Origin: Gemmatimonas sp.
Lineage (GTDB): Bacteria > Gemmatimonadota > Gemmatimonadetes > Gemmatimonadales > Gemmatimonadaceae
Direction: 5' to 3'
Assembly (NCBI GenBank): GCA_011390885.1
Contig: JAABRO010000062.1
Coordinates: 62,001-126,000 of the forward strand
DNA length: 64,000 bases
The position numbers and the translations under genes were made by a program. The notes beneath the pieces were generated by a model. The model made no database searches and was not told the origin of the DNA. It worked only from the letters and a program-made list of their open reading frames with translations. Shown here piece by piece: positions 405 through 64,000 of the stretch (the first letter of the stretch is position 1; each line of letters opens with the position of its first letter).

Positions 405-809
405 TCAGTCCGGCAGCACCGCCGTAACCTCCAGCTCCACGACCGCACCGGGCTCCACGAGTCCCGCCACCTGCACCGCGCTCATCGCGGGGTAGTGTCG
501 TCCCATGAGGTCGCGGTACACCTGCCCGATCTCGCGCCCCGACGCGCGATACGCGGCGAGGTCGGTGAGGTACCAGGTGAGGCGCACCACGTGCTCCGGG
601 CCTGCGCCTGCTTCTGCGAGCACGGCCAGCGCGTTGCGCAGCGCCTGTGCCGTCTGCTCCACGACACCGGGCCCCACCAGCCGCTGCTCGGCATCCCACC
701 CGATCTGACCGGCCACGAACAGCTGCGTGCCACGCGCGGCCATGCCGTTCGCGTAGCCGCGCGGCGGCGGCCAGCCGGCCGGCTGCAGGATCCGGTGGGG
801 CGTGCTCAT
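405..809 (-). CDS. RidA/YjgF-family protein of the aminobenzoyl-CoA operon
   Basis: 134 aa, the normal length of the RidA (YjgF/UK114) family. RidA proteins hydrolyse reactive enamine/imine intermediates, releasing ammonia. It is the last gene of the operon, and its ATG overlaps the stop of the CoA ligase by 4 nt (806-809), indicating translational coupling. The Arg that binds the substrate carboxylate in classical RidA (the R of a P-A-R motif) is Met here, in the [10 protein letters not shown] segment near residue 108. It is therefore probably not a general 2-aminoacrylate deaminase. A role in deamination or hydrolysis of the non-aromatic amino-CoA intermediate is inferred from position only. 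RidA-like proteins are known from the Azoarcus evansii 2-aminobenzoate clusters. Confidence 0.85.
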
Positions 810-2476
810 GCATCCTCCCGCAGGCGATAACGCTGCAGCTTGCCGGTGTCGGTCTTCGGCAGCGCCGCCACGAAGGCGACGAGCCGCGGGTACTTGTACG
901 GGGCGATCGTGGCCTTCACGTGGTCCTGCAGCGCGCGCACGAGCGCGTCCGACGGATCGTAGCCGGGGCGCAGCACCACGAACGCCTTCACGGCCTGCCC
1001 GCGCTCCTCGTCGGGCACGCCCACGACAGCGCACTCGGCCACCGCTTCGTGCGCGAGCACGGCCGCCTCCACCTCCGGCGCGCCGATGTTGTAGCCGCTC
1101 GAGATGATCAGGTCGTCCGTGCGCGCCTTGAAGTACACGTAACCGTCCGCGTCCATCACGGCGGCGTCCCCGGTGAGGTTCCAGCCCCGCTGCACGTAGG
1201 CGCGCTGCCGGTCGTCGGCGAGGTAGCGGCAACCCGTGGGGCCGCGCACCGCGAGGCGCCCCACCGTACCCGCCGGCACCGGCGCGAGCGCGTCATCGAG
1301 GATTGCCACCTCGTAGCCCGGCACCGCCCTGCCGATCGCCCCCGCGCGCACGTCGGCACCCGAGGCGGCGATGAAGATGTGGATGAGCTCCGTGGCCCCG
1401 ATGCCGTCGAGCATCTCGACACCCGTGGTCTCGCGCCAGAGCGTGCGCGTGGCATCGGGCAGCGCCTCGCCCGCCGACACGGACTGCCGCAGCGACGACG
1501 TGTCGAACGCGCCCGGCCGCTGCTGCAGCACGATCCCCATGTGCCGGTAGAACGTGGGTGCGGTGCAGGTGATCGTGGCGCGCGTGGCCGCGATCGCACC
1601 GAGCAGCTGCTCCGGCGTCACTTTCTCCACCAGCACCGTGGAGCCGCGCACCGCCATCGGGAAGCAGAGCAGCCCGCCCAGCCCGAAGGTGAACGCGAGT
1701 GGCGGCGTGCCAATGCACCGGTCGTCGCGGCCGATGCGCAGCACCTGCTTCGCGAAGCCGTCGCACATGATGAGCACGTCACGATGGAAGTGCAGGCATC
1801 CCTTGGGCTCGCCCGTCGTGCCGCTCGTGAACGCGATGAGGCACACGTCGTCCTGCGAGGTGGCCACCGCCGTGAACGGTGCGTCGTGCATCGTCATGCG
1901 CGCGTCGAGGTCGGCCGGGTGGTCACCGCCCCACGACAGCATCGCCACCGGCGGCGCATGCGCGCCCCGCTCGGCGTTCACCGCATGCACCGCCGTCTCG
2001 AGCTCGTCAGCGAGGCGCGCGTCGGTGAGCGCGTGGCTCACGCGTGCCTTGCGCATCACGACCGCCAGCTCCACCGCGCGCAGCATGGGCATGGTGGTGA
2101 CCGCGATCGCGCCGGCCTTGAGCACGGCGAACCACGCCGCCGCGAGCCGCGGACCGTTGTAGCCACGCAGCAGCACGCGCGTCCCGGGGCGCACGCCGTC
2201 GGCCACGAGCACATGCGCGATCGCATCGGCGTCACGCTGCAGCGCCGCGTACGTGACCTCGCGCCAGCCCCCGGCGCCATCGGGGCTCACGATCGCGACG
2301 CGATCGCCGTCGCCGTCCGCGACGGCGCGGTCGAGCAGCACCTCGGCGGCGTTGCAGCGCGGCGGGTACACATACGGCGGCTCGAGGCGCAGCACCGGCC
2401 ACTCGTGCGGCGGCGGCAGGTGATCGCGCGCGAACGAATCGGCGTGCGCGCTGGGCAGCAGCGACGGCGCACTCAT
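806..2476 (-). CDS. abmG: 2-aminobenzoate-CoA ligase-like acyl-CoA synthetase
   Basis: 556 aa ANL-superfamily (AMP-dependent) acyl-CoA ligase. It has the P-loop-like [12 protein letters not shown] motif near residues 235-246, a [12 protein letters not shown]5-type motif, a [19 protein letters not shown] segment (A8 hinge) and the C-terminal Lys in [11 protein letters not shown] (A10). The family makes acyl-adenylates and then aryl-CoA thioesters; benzoate-type ligases have this length. The call as 2-aminobenzoate (anthranilate) CoA ligase rests mainly on the fused monooxygenase/reductase gene in the same operon; a salicylate or related ligase is the main alternative. It lies 51 nt behind the acyl-CoA dehydrogenase gene and overlaps the RidA-like gene by 4 nt. 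Confidence 0.78.
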
Positions 2477-5850: not shown

Positions 5851-8256
<2,406 letters not shown>

Positions 8257-53255: not shown

Positions 53256-54560
53256 TCACCCGCCGAGTTCGTTGAGCCGCGGGTTCACGAACGTGTTGTA
53301 GATCGAGCCGAAGGTGAAGCTGAGCCCCACCGAGCCGCGCAGGCGATAGGCCGTGGCCAGCGCGCGCTGACGCGTCAGCACTTCGTCATCGCTCGCATCA
53401 CCGCGCGCGAGGTACAGCTGGTCCTGCACCTTGGCCGCCTCGGCGCTCAGCTCGAGCGACAGCCCGCGCGAAATGCGCAGCGTGGTGCGGCCGTTGAACG
53501 ACACGTTGTACCGTTCCGCATCGTGCAGGTACTGCGTGTAGCGGAGCGCGGCGTCGATCTGCCCCCATGTCTGGCGCGACTCGCCGGCCACCACGACACG
53601 AGCCACCGGACGGGTCTCGCTCGTCTGCTCGTAGATCGTGATCTCGCGGTAATCGAAGAACTGTCCGCCCAGCGACACGATGCCCACGAGCTGGCGACTC
53701 GTGGCCTCCCGCCACGGGAAGACGTTGTACTCCGCCGACAGCTCGGCATTCGCGTACGCGTCCTCGTTGCGGAACTCGTTGAGCCCCGTGCGCAGTCGCG
53801 TGCCCACCGACCAGTGATCGCTCAGGCTGCGCACGATGCGCGCGGTGGCTTGCGCGGAGCGCAGGATGAACGTGCGCTCGGCGCCATCGGAGAGCTCGAA
53901 CCGCCGCGCGCGGTACTCGTTGTCGGCGTTGAACTCGAGCCGCCACTCCTCGGTGACCCGGTTGGCGCCGAGCGATCCGGAGAGGCGGTACTCGCCGGAT
54001 CGGCTCTCCGACTCCGCGTTGCCGTTCAGGCGCACGCGGTACACCCAGAGGTTCCACGGGTCCTTGGGTTGCTGCGTCGACACGGCCTGGTCCCCCACCA
54101 GCGGGTCGTACTGCACGAGCAGGCGCTCGAGCAGCTGCGCCCCGCGTGAGCCGCGCGCGACGCGGGTGGCGAGCCCCACGTGGATCATGCGCGACAGCGT
54201 GCGCCGCCGTGTGTCCTCGGCGATGTTGGGCGGCGTCGTGGCCACGAGCGTGTCCGTGCGCCCCGCGAAGGCCCGCTGCCCGATGAACTGCAGCGTGTAC
54301 TCGCCGCCCCCCGAGCCCGTGCCGATGCGCGTGATCAGGAGGTGCACGTCGGCGTCGAGCCGGTCCTGCGTGAAGACCGCGTACGGGTGCTCGGTGATCA
54401 GGAAGTTCCGGTCACAGCCGCCCGTGGGGCAGTCGAGAAAGACCTTGACGCGCGGATCGTCGTCATCGGGCTGCGCGGCAAGCGTCACCGGCAGCATCGC
54501 CAGGAAGCAGGCCCCGACGGCGATCGCCAGCCGGGCCATTGGGGAGGGGAGCGAGGGCAT
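53256..54560 (-). CDS. Exported beta-barrel-type outer-membrane protein
   Basis: 434 aa from 54560; a second in-frame ATG seven codons later (MARLAIAVG) starts the signal peptide equally well. The signal ends ...TLAAQ. The N-terminal part has two Cys (DCPTGGCDRNF), then a long series of amphipathic strands (WRLEFNADNEYRARRFEL; SVGTRLRTGLNEFRNED; FFDYREITIYEQTS) ends near LRGSVGLSFTFGSIYNTF. It looks like a barrel with an N-terminal soluble domain; ligand unknown. Confidence 0.78.
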   Translation of the reverse strand: MPSLPSPMARLAIAVGACFLAMLPVTLAAQPDDDDPRVKVFLDCPTGGCDRNFLITEHPYAVFTQDRLDADVHLLITRIGTGSGGGEYTLQFIGQRAFAGRTDTLVATTPPNIAEDTRRRTLSRMIHVGLATRVARGSRGAQLLERLLVQYDPLVGDQAVSTQQPKDPWNLWVYRVRLNGNAESESRSGEYRLSGSLGANRVTEEWRLEFNADNEYRARRFELSDGAERTFILRSAQATARIVRSLSDHWSVGTRLRTGLNEFRNEDAYANAELSAEYNVFPWREATSRQLVGIVSLGGQFFDYREITIYEQTSETRPVARVVVAGESRQTWGQIDAALRYTQYLHDAERYNVSFNGRTTLRISRGLSLELSAEAAKVQDQLYLARGDASDDEVLTRQRALATAYRLRGSVGLSFTFGSIYNTFVNPRLNELGG

Positions 54561-54588
54561 AGAACAAGTCTATGCGCGTGCACGCGGG

Positions 54589-57500
54589 TCAGGGCGTCGC
54601 GAGCGCCTCCGTCACCGCGGTCGGCAGCAAGCCGAAGGCCGCGGACGCGAGGTTGAGCGACGTGCTCGGACTGCCGTCGGGATTCCACACATCCACCTCC
54701 GTGAACGCGCCCGCTGCCGTGGTGGCCTCGGGCACCGGCGGACGCAGCCGCTCGGCGGCCAGACGGCCGAATCCACCACGCGCGACCAGCGCGCGCGCCG
54801 CGGCCACGAGGTCGGCCGGATCGTCGGGCACCTCGGCGAGCGAGACACCGAGCCGGTCGGCGCACAGCTGTCGCCGGAAGGCGAGGAGCTCCTGCGGCCG
54901 GCCGTTCTCCAGCCGGTCGTCGAACACCGACACCGCGTACGAGCTGTCGTACGACAGGCCGCGCCGCCAGAGGTGCGTGGTCCCCACCATCGCCCATGCA
55001 TCGTCCACGATCACCGTGGTGGTGGCCAGCTTGAGCGTACGCGCCGGCCCCGCCGACGGAGAGATCACGGCCACGCGCGCGGCCCGTGTCTCGGCGCCCA
55101 GCCGGTCGAGCGCTGCACGGGTCACCTGGTCGCGAATGCGCTGATACGCCTTCGGAATGCCCGCGTCGAAGAAGACGGGCACGCAGGCCAGCACGCGCAG
55201 CCCCGGGCGCTCCGTCATGCGCGTGAAGAGGGTGTCGAGCAGATGCACGCGGTCGTCCGTCTCGCCGAACGCGAGGTCGTCGAGCGCCGGCGTCTCGAGG
55301 TAGATGAAGTCCTCGGCCCGCTCGATGGCGCGCACGAGCGCCGTCGCCCCCTCGCGCGCCCCTTTCGCGGCGGCGAGGAAGCGGCGGTCGAGCGCGCGCG
55401 CGATGCGGTCGGCGCTGTCGCTGATACCCGCCGGAATCGTGATGCCGGTGCCGCTGAGCGCCGAGCGGATGCTCGCCAGCCCCTCGCCGAACGGGTAGCC
55501 GCTGCCGCCCACGAGCGCCGCGAGCTCGCTGAGCCCCACCTCGGCCTCCATGCCGGCGGCCACGGTGCGCAGGCCGGCCACCCAGAGGCTGTCGGCGGCG
55601 GGCGCCGTGGGCACGGCGAGGTCGCCGGCCTCCACGGTGGTGGCAAGGTCGATCGTGCTCGTGGCCACGCGGTCGCGCACGTACTCGGCAACCCCGCGCA
55701 CGGCAGGTCCCTCCACGCGGGCGCCCACGGCAATCACATCGGGGCCCGCCGGACAGAGCGGGTGTCCATTGTGGTGCGGCAGGAGCCCGTGCCGGTCGCC
55801 AAGCGCGGGTCCACCGCCCACCGCGGCGCGCGAGGCACCGGCCGCCGTGGCCGCCACCACCAGTTCGCGTCGCTCGAGCCCGGGGAACGGCTGACCGGCG
55901 GCCCAGGCGTTGGGGAGCGTGCGCGGCGTGCGCCGCACCGTCGCACCGGTGGCGGCGAGCGGCGCGTCGCCGTCGCCGGTGGGCGCGCCCTTGAAGGCGG
56001 GCGGGGTGAGGCGAAGGGTGAGCGTGGCGCTCGCGGCCGCAGCGAAGGTGCCGAGGGCGCGCATGACCGCCGTGATCGTGGCCGGGTCCACCAGCGTGAG
56101 GCTGCCGCCACCGAGCGCGACCACCTGCGTGCCGGAGGCGATGTTCGCGCCGGCGCCGAGCGTGGCGACCTCGCGCCCCTCCTCGCAGAGCAGGAACGGG
56201 CCGGCGGCACTCGCGGCGCTGGCCACCGTGCCGCCTACCGGCGCCGGCCGGTCGAAGCGCTGGTCGGCGAAGAACCGCTGCCCGCGCGCCGTGACCACCA
56301 GCACGCTCACGCCCATGGGCGTCTCCGGGGTCGCGTCCCCGTCGGCGAGCGGTGCGACCACCCGGGCCACGCCGCTGGCGTCGGCCAGCCCGGCACCACC
56401 GTCGAGCTGGTACCGCGTGCCGGTGGTGTGGTTGAAGCCCTGCGTCCAGCAGCGTACCCACGCACCGGCCGCCTCCGTGCCAAGCTCCACGGTGAAGAGC
56501 ACGCGCTGGCCGGCCACCGTGCCGCCGACCTCCGCACCGCCCCCCACGAGGGCGGCGGCGGTGAGGGTGATCGACGCCGGCACCGGCACGTCGGGGAGGG
56601 CGCCGCCGAGCGGCCCCCAGTCGAGGGACACGGCCGAGGCGGCGAGGCGCGACGGAACCGCGGCGCCCCCGTCCTGCAGGCGCAGCGCCTCGAGCGCGGT
56701 CGTGGCGACATCGTCGGTGGTGCGGAGCAGGCAGGGGCGCGTGGCCCGATCCACGAGCTGGCGCGTGGTGGCCCGCTCCTGGTCGGCGGCGCGCCGCTGC
56801 GCGGGGGCGGCCGCCGCGCCGTCAGCGTGCCGCGGCTGCCCGGTGAGATGATGCTCGATGCTCAGCACCGCCACGCACACGTGGTCGCGCTGCAGGATGG
56901 GGTCCACCGGGCCGTCGGCGAACAGCGACACCGTGTCGCCGAAACGGCCGTCGGGGAGCACGGCCATGCGAGGGATCGGCAGGTCGTCGGGCGCGCCGGA
57001 GGGCGCCGCCGAAAAGGCCAGGTCGAGCGCCCCGGAGCCGGAGCCACGAAATCGGTTCGCTCCTGAACCATCAGCGTTTCCGCTCACCGCGACCCGCGCC
57101 AACTCCTCGGCCGTCAGCGCGCCGCCGAATGCGTTCACGAGCTGCACGGACAGCCGGTCCGCCCCGGACGCAACCGGGGCGGTGCGCGTGTCCACGCCTT
57201 CCGCGAACAACTCCTCGAAGCCGTTGTCGGCGTGCGTGGCGAGGTAGCGCCACCAGCAGGCCACCGCGCCGGGGTCCACGGCGTGCCCGCGCTGGTCGAA
57301 GGCCCACAGGCGCACCGAGGTGCTGGTGGGAAACTTGAGCAGGAACTGCGACTCGCCGCCGGTCACGCCGGGGCGGAACGGGTCGCGCATGGGCGCGGCG
57401 CCGTTGGCGAGCGCGCCACCGTCGGCGGCGAGGCCCAGGTAGGTGAGTTTCTTCTCGTCGGTGTCGACGGTGGCTGGAAACGGGAACGGGAGTCGTCCGT

Positions 57501-57921
57501 CAAACCACGACACATCAGAAACAGCATCGACAATCTCGAGAGCCAGTGATCGTACGATTGGCCTCGTCGCCCGGTTCGTGACCGATGGCGCACCGAGCGT
57601 TGGAATGGCACGCATGAGCGCCCCGAGCCGCTCCGAGGCCTGCGGGAGCAGTTCGTACACCGCCACCAGGCGGTCGTCGGTGAAGGCCAGGCCGTCGGGT
57701 CCGCGCAGGTGGGCGAGCCCCAGCGGACGCGGATCGGTGGCCATGTAGAACGAGAGGATCCCGGCCACGGGCGGCCGCCACTCGACGTCGCCGTCGAGGG
57801 TGAGGGGGACCGCGAAATCGGCCTCAGGGAGAGGCAGCTGCACCGTGTCCGCCGAGAACCACGGACCGAGCACCGGGCTGTGCAGCCCGAGGCTGCGGGG
57901 GGAGGGCGTGAGGGTGATCAT
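54589..57921 (-). CDS. Giant beta-rich protein with degenerate phospholipase-D-like C-terminal domain
   Basis: 1110 aa from the ATG at 57921, 5 nt behind the previous gene. No signal peptide or membrane helix is seen. The first part (1 to about 860) is rich in beta strands with many ADG/GDG turns and no family I recognise. From about residue 866 (IERAEDFIYLETPALDDLAF) it follows the phospholipase D superfamily. The HKD-type region reads ATTTVIVDDAWAMVGTTH (966-983), and SYDSSYAVSVFDD follows. The usual His and Lys of HxKxxxxD are Ala and Thr, and the Asn of GSxN is His, so catalysis is unlikely. It is the third gene of a three-gene operon of giant proteins. Function unknown. Confidence 0.88.
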   Translation of the reverse strand: MITLTPSPRSLGLHSPVLGPWFSADTVQLPLPEADFAVPLTLDGDVEWRPPVAGILSFYMATDPRPLGLAHLRGPDGLAFTDDRLVAVYELLPQASERLGALMRAIPTLGAPSVTNRATRPIVRSLALEIVDAVSDVSWFDGRLPFPFPATVDTDEKKLTYLGLAADGGALANGAAPMRDPFRPGVTGGESQFLLKFPTSTSVRLWAFDQRGHAVDPGAVACWWRYLATHADNGFEELFAEGVDTRTAPVASGADRLSVQLVNAFGGALTAEELARVAVSGNADGSGANRFRGSGSGALDLAFSAAPSGAPDDLPIPRMAVLPDGRFGDTVSLFADGPVDPILQRDHVCVAVLSIEHHLTGQPRHADGAAAAPAQRRAADQERATTRQLVDRATRPCLLRTTDDVATTALEALRLQDGGAAVPSRLAASAVSLDWGPLGGALPDVPVPASITLTAAALVGGGAEVGGTVAGQRVLFTVELGTEAAGAWVRCWTQGFNHTTGTRYQLDGGAGLADASGVARVVAPLADGDATPETPMGVSVLVVTARGQRFFADQRFDRPAPVGGTVASAASAAGPFLLCEEGREVATLGAGANIASGTQVVALGGGSLTLVDPATITAVMRALGTFAAAASATLTLRLTPPAFKGAPTGDGDAPLAATGATVRRTPRTLPNAWAAGQPFPGLERRELVVAATAAGASRAAVGGGPALGDRHGLLPHHNGHPLCPAGPDVIAVGARVEGPAVRGVAEYVRDRVATSTIDLATTVEAGDLAVPTAPAADSLWVAGLRTVAAGMEAEVGLSELAALVGGSGYPFGEGLASIRSALSGTGITIPAGISDSADRIARALDRRFLAAAKGAREGATALVRAIERAEDFIYLETPALDDLAFGETDDRVHLLDTLFTRMTERPGLRVLACVPVFFDAGIPKAYQRIRDQVTRAALDRLGAETRAARVAVISPSAGPARTLKLATTTVIVDDAWAMVGTTHLWRRGLSYDSSYAVSVFDDRLENGRPQELLAFRRQLCADRLGVSLAEVPDDPADLVAAARALVARGGFGRLAAERLRPPVPEATTAAGAFTEVDVWNPDGSPSTSLNLASAAFGLLPTAVTEALATP

Positions 57922-57926
57922 CGCCG

Positions 57927-60900
57927 TCAGCTCCGGGTCACGGGGGTGGAGGGCGCGCTCAGGCGACCGCCGGGATCGAGGGTCACGACGCGCCAGCTCG
58001 TGCCGACCGGCGGGTCTTCGCCCACGGCATCGATCAGGCGGAAGGTGCGCGCCACACCGCTGCCGATGGACGCCGTCGGGTCGTCGGCCAGCACCGTGCC
58101 TACCCGGCTCTCTCGGCCACCCGGCAGGCGCCGGTACACGTCGAACCGGTATCCGCCCATGGCACCACGGCGCAAAATCTCTGTATGCTGCCAGGTTACT
58201 GTCGCGTTGGCGCCGCTCACAGCAAGCGTGAGACCGATAGGCGCGGCCGGCGGATCGGGCGGGATGAATGCCGAACTGACTGGGCCACTCGCCGGACTCC
58301 ATTCACCCGGGAGCGTGGTGCCGGGGGGCGAGGGGGCCTGCACCTCCACCCGCCAGGCCATGCGCGTCCACGGCGGAAGCGCACCGTCCGCGAACCGGTC
58401 GGTGCCGGCGTCCACCAGCTCGAACACCTGTGGCCCGTCCGTGGCGGGATCGCTCGCCGGGTCGACCGGCGGCACGTCGCCCTCGGCCACGATCGGCATC
58501 CGCAGCGGATCCGAATCGGCCACGCTCCGGCGCAGCCGGTACCGGGCCGCCGGCTGCGGACCGCGCACCACCGTCACCGACAGACGAGCGGCTCCGGTGT
58601 CGGTGAAGCCGGCGAAGTCGAGCAGTGGCCGCGGTGGCGGACCGCCCGAGGGCACCGCCACCGGCAGCAATGTGGCAGCGGTGAAGTCGCTTTCCACATT
58701 CTGGGCACTGAGCGCCACGATCTTGAAGAAGGCGAGCACGCGCAGCGAGCCGGACAGGTCGTGCGCGTAGCGCAGGTCGGTGCCTGCCAGCGGCTCCGCG
58801 GTGAGGTTGGTGAACAGGTCGCGCGTGAACACGGCCGCGTGCGCCGGGTCGCTCCAGACGGCACCGCGGTGCGCGGCGTCGGGCGCCGCGTCCACGGCGG
58901 CCACCACGGCGGCCACCGCGGCGTTGCCCGCCGCGCCCCGCTCGGCGAGCGCCGAACGCAGACGCGTCTCGTCGGTGGTGTACACGCGGTAGCGCGCGTT
59001 CGGCGTGCCGGTCCAAGTGAGCACCACGCGCGCGCGCCCCACGGCGTCGGGGCGCGCGCTGTAGCGCAGCGTGGGGTCGAGCACGACCGCGGCCGGCGGA
59101 CGCGGGTCGACCAGGTCGCGGCGCACCACCTCGCACGGGTCACCGTAACCATTGGCGTCGTACCACTGCGCGTCGAGCTTCGCCTCCACGCTGCCGGCGC
59201 GCGCGATTACACCCGCTGGCGGCGTGATCGTGATGGCGAACTTCGGCGCGAACACGGCCGGCAGCGCGACCTCCTCGCTCACACTGAGCCCGCCCACCGT
59301 GCCGGACACGCGCGCGCCGAGCAGTGGCAGGCTGCCGGCCGCGAGGTCGTCCACGCGCGGCACGGTGAGCACGGCGCGCAGCGCGCCGAAGCGTGGCGCA
59401 TCGTCGAGCGGTGCAGCGTTGGCGAGGTCGTATTCGAGCGACATCACCGGCGTGGGCGGCTTCGTGCGCGCCTTCGCCCCCACGGCGCGGGTGCCCCAGT
59501 CGCTCCAGCGCCCCCACCAGTCGGCCTGCGCGATGCGATAGGTCACCGCATCGGGCGGCGCGACGCCATCGGCGAAGCGTCCGGTGCCGGTCTCGGTGGC
59601 TCCGTCGGGCACGGTGGGCACCAGCGCGAGCGCGCGTCCCGTGTCGTCGTGTCGCTCGTTGAGGCCGGTGAGGCGGCCACCGCTCTCGCGCGCCACCGCC
59701 AGCGTGGGCGCCGCGGTGAGCCGGGTCAGCGGTATCGTGATCTCGCGCAGCGCGGCCGGCGGCAGCACGTCGGCCACCCACGTGCCGAGCGCGTCGCCGG
59801 TGGGGAGCGCCTGCGTGGTGCCCGTGGCGCCCACCTGCTCTTCGGGGAGCAGCGGCGCGCCGAGCAGCGGCGGCAGCGGACGCGACGGCGGCGCCCCGCG
59901 AAACACCAGCACGGGCACCGTGAAGTCGAACACGGGCAGTCCGTCGGCGGAGCGGTGCGGCACATCGAACGGGAGCCCGGGCACCGCACGCGGCGCGCTC
60001 AGCCACCCGCCGGACAGCGCCAGCGAGAGCACCTGCGACACGTCGAGCACCGAGAAGTCCACCGCCACGAAGCCGCGAATGAAGTACAACTCGTACGGCA
60101 GCGATGACGGCGGCGACGGGTCCACGTCCATGAAGCCGAGCCAGCGCGCCATGCCGGGGTCGGCGGTGGCGGAGAGCACGGCGTTCAGGCTGCTCACGTC
60201 GGCGGTGGCCACGGTGGCACCGGCCGTGACGCCCTCGTCGAGCGGTACGGTGAGGCCGAGCGCGGGGGGACGCGCACTGAGGTCGACGAGCACGTGGTCG
60301 AGGTGCGGCGCGATCTCCCGCGCGAGCGGCTCGACGCGCGTCCACTCGTCGTCGTCGGTGGCGGGCGGCGCGGCGGCGGCCGAGGCCACGGTGGGATCGT
60401 CGTGCAGCCCCAGGCGCCGCGGCGCACCGCGGCGCACCCGCTTCTCGGCGCGCACCTTCGCGTCGGGCAGGCCGAGGTAGCGCGGGGCCGCTTCGTACGG
60501 CAGGTCGAGCACGTTCACCGGCTTGAACTCGAGCACCGAGCGCACGTTGGCGGGCACCCACGCTGCCGCGCGCACGATGCCCTGCCCCGAGATCACGATG
60601 CCGTCGATGTGCGAGCCGGTGAGTGTGTACGGTGACGCCGAGCGCTCGCCGATGGTGCGGCGTCCCTCGGAGGTGTCGATGTACGCGGACACGACGAGCG
60701 CCTCCTTGCCCGTCACGATCGTGGGCTCGCGGCGCGTGAGCACCGGCGGCTGGCGATCGCGTCCGCCCTGCACGTGCACCGCGATCGCGACCTCGCCCGC
60801 GTTGCGCAGCAGGTGCCCGGTGACCGGGTTGTCGGGGGTGACGGCGAAGGGCAGCGTGAGCACGCGCCCGAAGGAATCCACCCACGCGATGTCGGTGCGC

Positions 60901-61085
60901 GCGTTGCCGGTCACGAGTCCCTGCGCAACGGTTTCCGGCACGCGGTACACGAGGAACGGGCACACCGGCAGCCCGATCTCGGGCGCGACGTACACGCGCA
61001 GGTGGATGCCGTCGGTGAGGTGAGGATCACCGGCACCGTCGATGCCGGCGGCACCCATGGCCCAGCGTGGAGGCAACGCGCTCAT
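57927..61085 (-). CDS. Giant beta-rich protein with C-terminal fibronectin-III-like domain
   Basis: 1052 aa from the ATG at 61085, which overlaps the upstream stop by 4 nt. No signal peptide. Many beta-strand segments are spread over the length; the last part (about 945-1050) is fibronectin type III-like (DPPAAPIGLTLAVSGANATV, TWQHTEILRRGAMGGYRFDV, FRLIDAVGEDPPVGTSWRVV). An earlier region LTWTGTPNARYRVYTTDETR also looks FN3-like, which suggests repeated sandwich domains. No enzymatic motif is seen. Translational coupling to both neighbours (4-nt overlap and 5-nt gap) argues for a complex of the three products. Confidence 0.88.
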   Translation of the reverse strand: MSALPPRWAMGAAGIDGAGDPHLTDGIHLRVYVAPEIGLPVCPFLVYRVPETVAQGLVTGNARTDIAWVDSFGRVLTLPFAVTPDNPVTGHLLRNAGEVAIAVHVQGGRDRQPPVLTRREPTIVTGKEALVVSAYIDTSEGRRTIGERSASPYTLTGSHIDGIVISGQGIVRAAAWVPANVRSVLEFKPVNVLDLPYEAAPRYLGLPDAKVRAEKRVRRGAPRRLGLHDDPTVASAAAAPPATDDDEWTRVEPLAREIAPHLDHVLVDLSARPPALGLTVPLDEGVTAGATVATADVSSLNAVLSATADPGMARWLGFMDVDPSPPSSLPYELYFIRGFVAVDFSVLDVSQVLSLALSGGWLSAPRAVPGLPFDVPHRSADGLPVFDFTVPVLVFRGAPPSRPLPPLLGAPLLPEEQVGATGTTQALPTGDALGTWVADVLPPAALREITIPLTRLTAAPTLAVARESGGRLTGLNERHDDTGRALALVPTVPDGATETGTGRFADGVAPPDAVTYRIAQADWWGRWSDWGTRAVGAKARTKPPTPVMSLEYDLANAAPLDDAPRFGALRAVLTVPRVDDLAAGSLPLLGARVSGTVGGLSVSEEVALPAVFAPKFAITITPPAGVIARAGSVEAKLDAQWYDANGYGDPCEVVRRDLVDPRPPAAVVLDPTLRYSARPDAVGRARVVLTWTGTPNARYRVYTTDETRLRSALAERGAAGNAAVAAVVAAVDAAPDAAHRGAVWSDPAHAAVFTRDLFTNLTAEPLAGTDLRYAHDLSGSLRVLAFFKIVALSAQNVESDFTAATLLPVAVPSGGPPPRPLLDFAGFTDTGAARLSVTVVRGPQPAARYRLRRSVADSDPLRMPIVAEGDVPPVDPASDPATDGPQVFELVDAGTDRFADGALPPWTRMAWRVEVQAPSPPGTTLPGEWSPASGPVSSAFIPPDPPAAPIGLTLAVSGANATVTWQHTEILRRGAMGGYRFDVYRRLPGGRESRVGTVLADDPTASIGSGVARTFRLIDAVGEDPPVGTSWRVVTLDPGGRLSAPSTPVTRS

Positions 61086-64000
61086 GTCCGCTCCTGCGCA
61101 ACGACCAGCGGGATGGAGTTGATGCTGCGGGACGCGATGCGCGTCCCGACCGGTTCGGTGAGGCGCAACTGCAGCGTGGCCAGGTCGGGCACCGCGATGC
61201 CGGGCGATGCTGCGAGCAGCACGCGCGTGGCCGACACGTTCGAGCGCACCGGCACGAGCGTGGACGGCTCGGGCGCGGGAATGCCCGGAATGCTCGCGTC
61301 GAGAATCGCGAGGCGCGGCGGGTTGCTGACCGGATCGACGAGCCGCGGCGCGCGCAGCAGCGCTTCGTCGCTGTCGAGCAGCAGTCCCACCAGGCGCCAC
61401 TCGGTGCCCACCTCCTGCCAGAGCGCGACAGTGCGCGGGCCGGTGGCCGGTGCGAACGGGTCGAGCCCGAGCGCCGACAGCGCCGCGTCGAGCAGCTCGT
61501 CGTCGGCCAGCCGTTCGTCGGTGGGCGGCGCGGCGGCCACGAGCACGTCGAGTGGATAGAACGGATTCGGCGTGGTGAAGCCGAAGCCGGTGGCCTCGAT
61601 GAGCTCCGTCACATCGCGGTAGCGCGACGCGCGGAAGTGCGAGAGCCCGATGTCGATCGCGTCTCCGCCTCCGGTGGGCACGGCCTGCACCACGAGGTCG
61701 TAGCGCGCCTGCGGCACGAGATCGGCGCGCACCTGCAGCGTGGCACCGTCCACGGGCGCGGGTTCGAGACACGGCGGCGCTTCACTCTCGGGACGCAACG
61801 TGCCGGTCGCGGCCTGGATGAGGCGCTGGTCGGCGAGCGTGCGCAGCTCGAACGGCAGGCCACCCCATTCGAACGCCTCCAGCAGCGGGAAGATCGCCGG
61901 CACGTCACCCGACGGTGGCGTGGGCGGCGGATCGGTGCGCCGCACGATCACGCCGAGCGTGTAGCCGTAGCGATCGAGCAGGTCCTCGATCCACTCCACG
62001 TCGAACCACACGAGCAGGGGATCGTCGCGCAGGTGCGACGGCACCTCGGCCACCGGATCGAAGCCGCGCAGGTAGCGCGCGAGCGCGCGCGGATCGAACC
62101 GCTGCTGCTTCGCGTAATCGCGCAGCTCGGCGTCGGGGAGCGTGCCGTCGTCGGCCGTGAGGAAGTGGAAGCGTTGCTCGTGCGTGGTGACCGTCACGTC
62201 CGTGGGCGGTGCGCCGAAGTCGAGCGTGCTGGCCGGCGGTGGCGTCTCGGTGGACTCCGCACCCACCCACACCGCCGCGCGATACGACACCTGCACCACG
62301 TAGCGCGAGTCGGGATCGAGCAGGTGGTAGCGATCGATCGCGTTCGCGGCGACCGTCGCGTCGTTCCAGGCATCGCGCAGCTCGTCACGCGCGGTATCGT
62401 CGTTGTCGGCCGCCACGAGCGCGTCATGGCGAATGCCGCACACGCGCACGAGTCCGATGTCGAAGTACCGATACGGCAGCACCTGGAACGCCGTCCACGG
62501 CCCGGCGACGCGCGGACGGTAGCGCACGTACACGCACCCATGCCGTCCCTCCACTGCCACGTGCTCGACCGTGCCAGGCCACGCCTGCTCCTGTCCACCG
62601 ATCGTGCCGCGCACCAGCGGGAGCCCCAGGCGCGGCCGCTTGCGATCGACCGTCGCGTGTGAACCCGGCGCGAGCTCCGGTCCCTGCGCCGGCCCGAACA
62701 GCGACATGATGTGCTGCACGATCTCCGACTCGCCCGTGAACGTGTCCAGGTCGTAGCAGAAGCGGATGAGGTGTCCCACGCCCTCGGACAGCTGCACACG
62801 CACCGCGACGATGCCGGGCGCGCGCAGCTCGAGCGAGTGGATCGTGCCCGATCGGCCGCGGCTCATCACCTCCGCCACCACCTTGCCATCGTTGTCGAGG
62901 CCATACGCCGTGACGGCGTCGGCACTCATCGCGCCCACCTGCATCGACACGCGATCGGTCGCCACCGGCAGCAGCGCCTCGAGCGCGTCCTTCGTGAAGG
63001 TGAGCTCGTAGTTGCCGTCGGGCGCGCTGGCCACGGGGAACCGATCGGCCACGCCAAGTGCGCCGCGGCGCGTGCGGAAGCGCACCGTGCCCAGCGTGAT
63101 CTCACGACCGGGTGCGCGCTCGTACTGCTTGAGCGCCGACATGTCGAGGCACACCGTTTCGCGGCCGCCGATGTCCGGCACCGTGAGGCACACCGCGAGC
63201 AGCAGCTCCGGCTCCGACACCTCGGGCGCGAAGGTGCCCTTGATGCCCAGGCTCATCGCCGTCATCGAGGCACGCGTGTAGCGTGGCAGCCGCCACGCGT
63301 GCGTGAGCGCGACCGACTCGCCCGCCGGCGTGTACGGCGCCGGCAGCGCGCCGCGTACGCCGGGCTCGAAGGTGAGCCCGAAGGTGGGCGCGAGCGCGGC
63401 CAGCGCCGACACCGTGAACATGGGCGGCGCGCCTTCCACGCCGTCCACGAAGAAGTCGGGCGGGTACGGCGTCTGCCCGCTCGGCGGCGCAGCGAATCGC
63501 ACGCGTCCCTGCGCGAGGCGGGCGCCGGCCCCGCCGAGCACGCAGTAGCGCGAGGGACGCGGCGCCGGATCGCAGACGCGTCCGAGGTTGTCGGCGGGGT
63601 CGCTCGAGAGTCCGTCGCCGCCTTCGGTGTGCGCGCGCGCCCACGGCGCGGGGTCCCAGCGCAGCAGCGCGAGGTCCCACCCTTCGTGCGTGGAAGCCGG
63701 CGTGCTGCCGTCCTCGGGCACGGCGGGGCGGAAGGTGGGCATCCACCAGGTGGCCGGCCACGTCGTCGTGTCCACCGGTGTCTCGGTGCCGTTGCTGGCG
63801 ATCTGCCGCAGCTCCACGCCCTGCAGTTCGTAGAGGTAGCGCACGCGGTTCGTGCCCGACCAGTCCACGCCGCCCCATCCCTGCGATGGCGTCGGCACGA
63901 AGCCGGTGGTGGTGGCCGGAATGTTCGAGCGCACGCGATGCGCGAAGCGCAGCACGGGCACGGTGTCGGGCCACGCCGTGTGCGCGTCGCCAAGGCCGGC
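61082..64000 (-). CDS. Giant beta-rich protein, partial (5' end beyond the window)
   Basis: At least 972 aa. The frame stays open to the window edge through 64000, and the GTG at 63961 reads inside a continuing protein (...AHTAWPDTV before PVLRFAHRV), so the true start is probably outside the window. It has no known catalytic motif. Segments such as ARYLRGFDPVAEVPSHLRDD and VWFDVEWIEDLLDRYGYTLG suggest mixed helix and strand in the middle, and strand-rich ends. It is the first visible gene of the three-gene unit and overlaps the next gene by 4 nt. Confidence 0.85.
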   Translation of the reverse strand, partial: AGLGDAHTAWPDTVPVLRFAHRVRSNIPATTTGFVPTPSQGWGGVDWSGTNRVRYLYELQGVELRQIASNGTETPVDTTTWPATWWMPTFRPAVPEDGSTPASTHEGWDLALLRWDPAPWARAHTEGGDGLSSDPADNLGRVCDPAPRPSRYCVLGGAGARLAQGRVRFAAPPSGQTPYPPDFFVDGVEGAPPMFTVSALAALAPTFGLTFEPGVRGALPAPYTPAGESVALTHAWRLPRYTRASMTAMSLGIKGTFAPEVSEPELLLAVCLTVPDIGGRETVCLDMSALKQYERAPGREITLGTVRFRTRRGALGVADRFPVASAPDGNYELTFTKDALEALLPVATDRVSMQVGAMSADAVTAYGLDNDGKVVAEVMSRGRSGTIHSLELRAPGIVAVRVQLSEGVGHLIRFCYDLDTFTGESEIVQHIMSLFGPAQGPELAPGSHATVDRKRPRLGLPLVRGTIGGQEQAWPGTVEHVAVEGRHGCVYVRYRPRVAGPWTAFQVLPYRYFDIGLVRVCGIRHDALVAADNDDTARDELRDAWNDATVAANAIDRYHLLDPDSRYVVQVSYRAAVWVGAESTETPPPASTLDFGAPPTDVTVTTHEQRFHFLTADDGTLPDAELRDYAKQQRFDPRALARYLRGFDPVAEVPSHLRDDPLLVWFDVEWIEDLLDRYGYTLGVIVRRTDPPPTPPSGDVPAIFPLLEAFEWGGLPFELRTLADQRLIQAATGTLRPESEAPPCLEPAPVDGATLQVRADLVPQARYDLVVQAVPTGGGDAIDIGLSHFRASRYRDVTELIEATGFGFTTPNPFYPLDVLVAAAPPTDERLADDELLDAALSALGLDPFAPATGPRTVALWQEVGTEWRLVGLLLDSDEALLRAPRLVDPVSNPPRLAILDASIPGIPAPEPSTLVPVRSNVSATRVLLAASPGIAVPDLATLQLRLTEPVGTRIASRSINSIPLVVAQERT

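Follow-up and report, generated by a model that had tools for sequence, protein, structure and literature searches.

The repeating beta-groove lipid-transfer proteins, which include TamB, YhdP and VPS13, have been reviewed (PMC7613979) and serve here as a point of comparison for long amphipathic beta-sheets. The other described groups that bear on the locus reported here are the phospholipase D (PLD) superfamily, the OmpA-like domain (PF00691), the contractile injection systems and tailocins, and DUF6603 (PF20248). For the last of these, a search confined to open-access rather than subscription papers returned no publication, and a combined-term search of the same scope was also empty.

The window, by which we mean the whole 64,000-nt stretch of Gemmatimonas sp. 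DNA that was analysed, holds three very large adjoining genes on the minus strand, here called A, B and C (Table 1). The A and B genes overlap by 4 nt and a gap of 5 nt separates B from C, exactly as an earlier sequence-only reading had it, and the window edge falls inside A. That reading counted at least 3130 residues in total; with A followed beyond the edge, the three proteins come to 4682 residues, encoded by ~14 kb of DNA. Third-position GC is 0.83-0.91 in the three frames and the frames are kept in homologues, so they are coding. Long antisense ORFs, for example 53836..57066, were rejected as genes, being shadow frames of a sequence with 72% GC. Hydropathy revealed no signal peptide in A, B or C, in line with the earlier reading. 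Its companion statement, that membrane helices are absent, is correct inside the window but not for the whole of A, which has a pair of hydrophobic helices upstream of the window edge.

Table 1. Coordinates of the features discussed. Positions are those of the window unless given as protein residues or with a contig label.
Feature	Position	Strand	Description	Basis
Gene A	61082..64000 in window; start at position-equivalent 68644	(-)	2520 aa, C-terminal 972 residues inside window	
Gene B	57927..61085	(-)	1052 aa; directly after A	
Gene C	54589..57921	(-)	1110 aa; third gene, non-catalytic PLD-like C-terminal lobe	
PLD-like lobe of C	54850..55386	(-)	Residues 846-1024	hhalign to active PLD
Degenerate HKD motif of C	54973..55026	(-)	Residues 966-983; H->A, K->T, D973 and G980 kept	
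OmpA-like region of A	Residues about 640-710		Outside window	Pfam and family profile
Hydrophobic helix pair of A	Residues about 925-975		Outside window	Hydropathy and model
DUF6603-related beta-meander of A	Residues about 966-1517		Outside window	hhalign
R. tropici CIAT 899 plasmid ABC	L077 11073-18515, 18515-22192, 22203-25466			Profile tally

The window proteins gave no usable match in Pfam, NCBIfam, PADLOC or PHROGs, and taken singly they had zero sequence matches in the PDB. No known family showed strong homology to all three. The claim that this composition is found in no described system holds against every one of these libraries and the open-access literature searched. What is new about A-B-C is its composition, which is not the same as a demonstrated new mechanism.

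The C-terminal lobe of C has the fold of the PLD superfamily. An AlphaFold2 model of C (pTM 0.70) matched PLD catalytic domains in Foldseek (E 2.5e-8, probability 1.00), and hhalign aligned the last lobe to an active PLD with a probability of 98.5 (E 3.8e-15), or 94.5 (E 7.8e-8) in a second test. Besides the fold, C shares with the superfamily the Asp and Gly of the HKD motif and the YIExP strand. Unlike PLD enzymes, it lacks the catalytic HxK. Its first HKD lobe was not recognised by profile: hhalign gave a probability of 0.5% and aligned a single short stretch, located where the lobe would be expected. The motif HxKxxxxDxxxxxxGSxN corresponds in C to A966, T968, D973, G980, T981 and H983; the replacement of HxK by Ala and Thr, as called from the letters, is therefore exact. 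The catalytic His and Lys are absent from all 27 of the C relatives, in which T mostly stands in for the Lys, and R, D, A, P, M, N or E for the His. The Asp, the Gly and, in YIExP, the Glu do not vary. With catalysis lost and the fold kept across phyla, the lobe fits the expectation for a selected pseudo-enzyme. L012, first picked up as a C relative, turned out to be an ordinary active PLD and was set aside.

For A, which had appeared to contain no recognised domain, the picture changes at the level of the family, where both a domain of the OmpA type and a region related to DUF6603 emerge. Pfam matches to OmpA were obtained in 8 of 20 A relatives (best 2.3e-7), and the A family profile matched solved OmpA domains in the PDB (best E 2.6e-5); the window A by itself remained below the PF00691 cut-off (14.8 of 27.2 bits). 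In PF00691 domains an Asp and an Arg bind diaminopimelate; of the motif that binds peptidoglycan, the A family keeps the Asn and the Arg, and the Asp is not clearly kept. A further difference from the OmpA-like domain as described is its setting, embedded within a 2500-aa leaderless protein. As for DUF6603, PF20248 was matched by 2 of the 20 relatives (E up to 0.5, best 6.6e-11) and not by the window A in Pfam, and hhalign placed the central region of A against DUF6603 at 97.6% (E 2.6e-12, 339 columns), a distant homology. Two cysteines, C1495 and C1508, are invariant in 43 of 43 aligned relatives and flank an FFFFSxKGC motif that closes the A centre; they are candidates for a disulphide or a metal site.

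DUF6603 proteins and A also share their setting, each being encoded in an operon whose products are giant and beta-rich. Three Gemmatimonadota genomes (L019, L020, L021, L102, L103) have DUF6603 proteins in separate operons that encode giant proteins without a leader, and one of these operons includes a tyrosinase-like gene. As far as can be told, these operons are likewise undescribed. They differ from the present locus in that the giant proteins tested there do not match B, which we had considered as their possible kin.

B itself is beta-rich and an obligate neighbour of A. It contains motifs, such as LGLPxxPFxVWRR, that look like FN3 strands by eye only; neither fn3 and related profiles nor any other profile in the libraries searched matched B, and the FN3-like domain proposed at its end has no profile behind it. 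B offers no clue.

The structure of the A centre was modelled with AlphaFold on a Sphingobium relative, the window's own A centre lying outside the window. Confidence in the model is moderate (pLDDT 67.7, pTM 0.52). Just before the centre is a hydrophobic stretch whose hydropathy, not its sequence, is conserved across relatives, and the model shows it as two helices. The modelled centre contains 29 strands that are 7 residues or longer, with a mean length of 11.9. On the Kyte-Doolittle scale, the hydrophobic face of these strands averages +2.32 against -0.80 for the other face, a difference of 3.12, compared with 1.60 for the strands of C as an internal control. Ordinary globular beta proteins also have amphipathic strands. 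We read the A beta-meander as strongly amphipathic in its predicted form. Foldseek returned weak matches of this model to amphipathic beta structures (ApoB100, ushers, LptD), with a TM-score by query length of at most 0.22 and poor superposition among the matches listed. Because the model is moderate and the Foldseek matches are weak, we use the strand pattern as evidence and the Foldseek matches not. The long amphipathic sheet predicted for A is a resemblance only to TamB, YhdP and VPS13: A has no sequence match to them and no N-terminal membrane anchor, and the model is too uncertain for membership. Profiles of the AsmA, TamB or VPS13 type were not among the matches listed for the 20 A relatives at E 0.5. 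An outer-membrane barrel is unlikely, given that A has no signal peptide and that the family also occurs in actinobacteria.

Scanning genome contigs with the window A sequence alone gave zero matches, and a two-sequence profile of the A centre led to 49 loci. Altogether, 52 distinct loci in at least seven bacterial phyla carry A-B(-C) in the same order (53 rows in the profile tally). The rows divide into 30 with ABC, 19 with AB and 4 with A, and since all four of the A-only rows stop at a contig edge, B comes directly after A in every row whose contig reaches far enough (49 of 49). C comes next after B in 30 of the 53 rows. Among the rows with AB, three break off early, one is partial, two are from Paracoccus and 13 belong to an actinobacterial clade of type II (Cellulomonas, Phycicoccus, Microbacterium, Arthrobacter and relatives). 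A genome-wide search for C in 14 of the 15 C-less genomes or records found only ordinary PLD lobes; Paracoccus and this one actinobacterial clade truly lack C. C is present in Reyranella, Tateyamaria, Herbidospora and one Streptosporangiaceae locus. A supposed internal TGA in the Tateyamaria C was dismissed, as it is the terminal stop only.

Across loci, the module gene junctions mostly range from -4 to +19 nt. When the neighbourhoods of 51 loci were clustered, no neighbour cluster other than A, B and C occurred in more than four loci. It is secure that A, B and C are a tightly coupled, self-contained module, and their conservation across seven phyla strengthens the original description of an operon of giants. 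The genes around the module in the present genome can be described briefly. ORF D (319 aa; L008:16646-17605), upstream of A and outside the window, stops 1 nt before A; no homologue of D was found in any module locus or library searched, and it was rejected as a part of the module on that ground. Further upstream, a DUF4249 protein is encoded along with a TonB-plug receptor; both look unrelated to the module. On the other side, 53256..54560 (-) encodes a 434-aa protein with a signal-peptide-like start; its gene lies downstream of C at a distance of 28 nt, reads the same way and is possibly co-transcribed with it. This protein has no Pfam match and is not conserved at other module loci.

Within the Gemmatimonadota, clear A is present in 2 of 395 genomes, and single-sequence searches of 150 genomes gave two clear C relatives. 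One of the two, from the MAG Gemmatimonadetes AG11 (G071, L052), lies in a set with the same gene order, A'-B'-C'. Identity between the AG11 and window proteins is 26-31% over the best stretches of A and C, with B weakly alike. The AG11 gene A' is split by a frameshift (L013, around 7100-7355), which reflects an error of assembly or else a copy that is broken. Another genome (G127; L014:11418-14246) has an N-terminally truncated C near a PIN-like gene, with A and B absent from the stretch read; it is probably the leftover of a lost module.

The A tree has two subfamilies. Type I unites the window A with Sphingobium, Planotetraspora, Halomonas and Anaeromyxobacter, and AG11 falls in type II. 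In this quick tree with long branches, accounting for the phylum labels takes 12 changes when 7 could be enough, which we read as horizontal transfer. This suggests that the module has moved between phyla and is apparently mobile. Paracoccus aminophilus has a plasmid copy of AB, and Rhizobium tropici CIAT 899 has one of ABC. Carriage by phages was rejected: there was no relative in 50,697 phage records and none was found in 2.9 million viral contigs.

The reading we favour, at a probability of roughly one in three, is that A-B(-C) forms one large leaderless assembly acting at lipid or membrane surfaces, with the pseudo-PLD reading phospholipid. We prefer it because of three features of A, namely the amphipathic sheet, the OmpA-like region and the hydrophobic helices, and because of the non-catalytic PLD of C. 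We infer complex formation and lipid contact from these features. A would be the membrane- or lipid-binding core, whose hydrophobic sheet face and helix pair could contact lipid, and B a structural scaffold that would have to bind A. C may be an accessory sensor or targeting part: it would recognise, and leave uncleaved, the head groups of phospholipids or a phosphate ligand. Candidate cellular jobs would be envelope maintenance, lipid sequestration or the response to membrane damage. Against this model, the 13 actinobacterial and two Paracoccus loci manage without C.

Of the roles put forward by the sequence-only reading, a large assembly is plausible. A structural scaffold of the cell itself, be it part of the cytoskeleton, a surface layer or an envelope anchor, would hold the wall through its OmpA-like and beta domains, with the PLD lobe only a fold reused for binding. 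Such a scaffold would accommodate the Asn and Arg retained in the peptidoglycan-binding motif, the large size and beta-richness of the proteins and the obligate presence of B. However, there is no signal peptide to bring them to the wall compartment, the OmpA Asp is in doubt, and the rarity of clear A among Gemmatimonadota genomes is unlike a housekeeping scaffold; we consider this reading rather doubtful. The same patchiness, together with transfer between phyla and the plasmid carriage in Paracoccus and Rhizobium, would suit a defence or antagonism module that kills or arrests the infected cell, with the pseudo-PLD as sensor and A, which has predicted membrane-active-looking segments, acting on membranes. 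A few neighbours do match defence families (JetB/JetD, PrrC, PDC-S06), although these counts come without a background rate, so that no enrichment is claimed, and nearly every defence-type family occurs in only 1 of 106 neighbours. The proteins themselves have no PADLOC match, nuclease, NADase, protease or other effector domains were not found in them, and the defence or toxin role is without positive evidence; it is unlikely.

Least probable is a leaderless extracellular particle of the injection-system or tail-like kind, freed by lysis, for which we see very little room. Large, beta-rich proteins with no signal peptides would fit such a particle, and the OmpA-like domain could bind peptidoglycan. 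Yet in contractile injection systems and tailocins the sheath, tube, baseplate and AAA+ genes stand together, and none of these, nor a spike gene, accompanies A-B-C as a conserved neighbour across the 51 loci. The 25 Pfam families listed for the 106 neighbours (100 further families lie beyond them) include no sheath, tube, baseplate or spike, and AAA_13 is represented by one protein, next to a single locus. PHROGs gave no meaningful match, and the phage-record and viral-contig searches found no relative.

The lipid- or membrane-surface assembly can be extended to a bolder proposal, that A, together with the DUF6603 group at large, makes up a new class of bacterial lipid-belt or lipid-carrier proteins, which would work from the cytosol with no signal peptide, and that A-B-C is a mobile machine directed by a dead PLD that reads phospholipids. 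This is speculative, and we would not expect it to hold in full.

A module of ~14 kb and ~4,700 residues is costly to make, is kept as a unit and has apparently moved between phyla, yet its proteins are annotated as hypothetical or as 'outer membrane protein'. The conservation of the pseudo-PLD implies that binding without catalysis would be the selected trait. Because R. tropici CIAT 899 has an intact plasmid ABC and the cultured Sphingobium, Halomonas and Planotetraspora also carry the module, its function is directly testable, and work on it would give a first handle on DUF6603.
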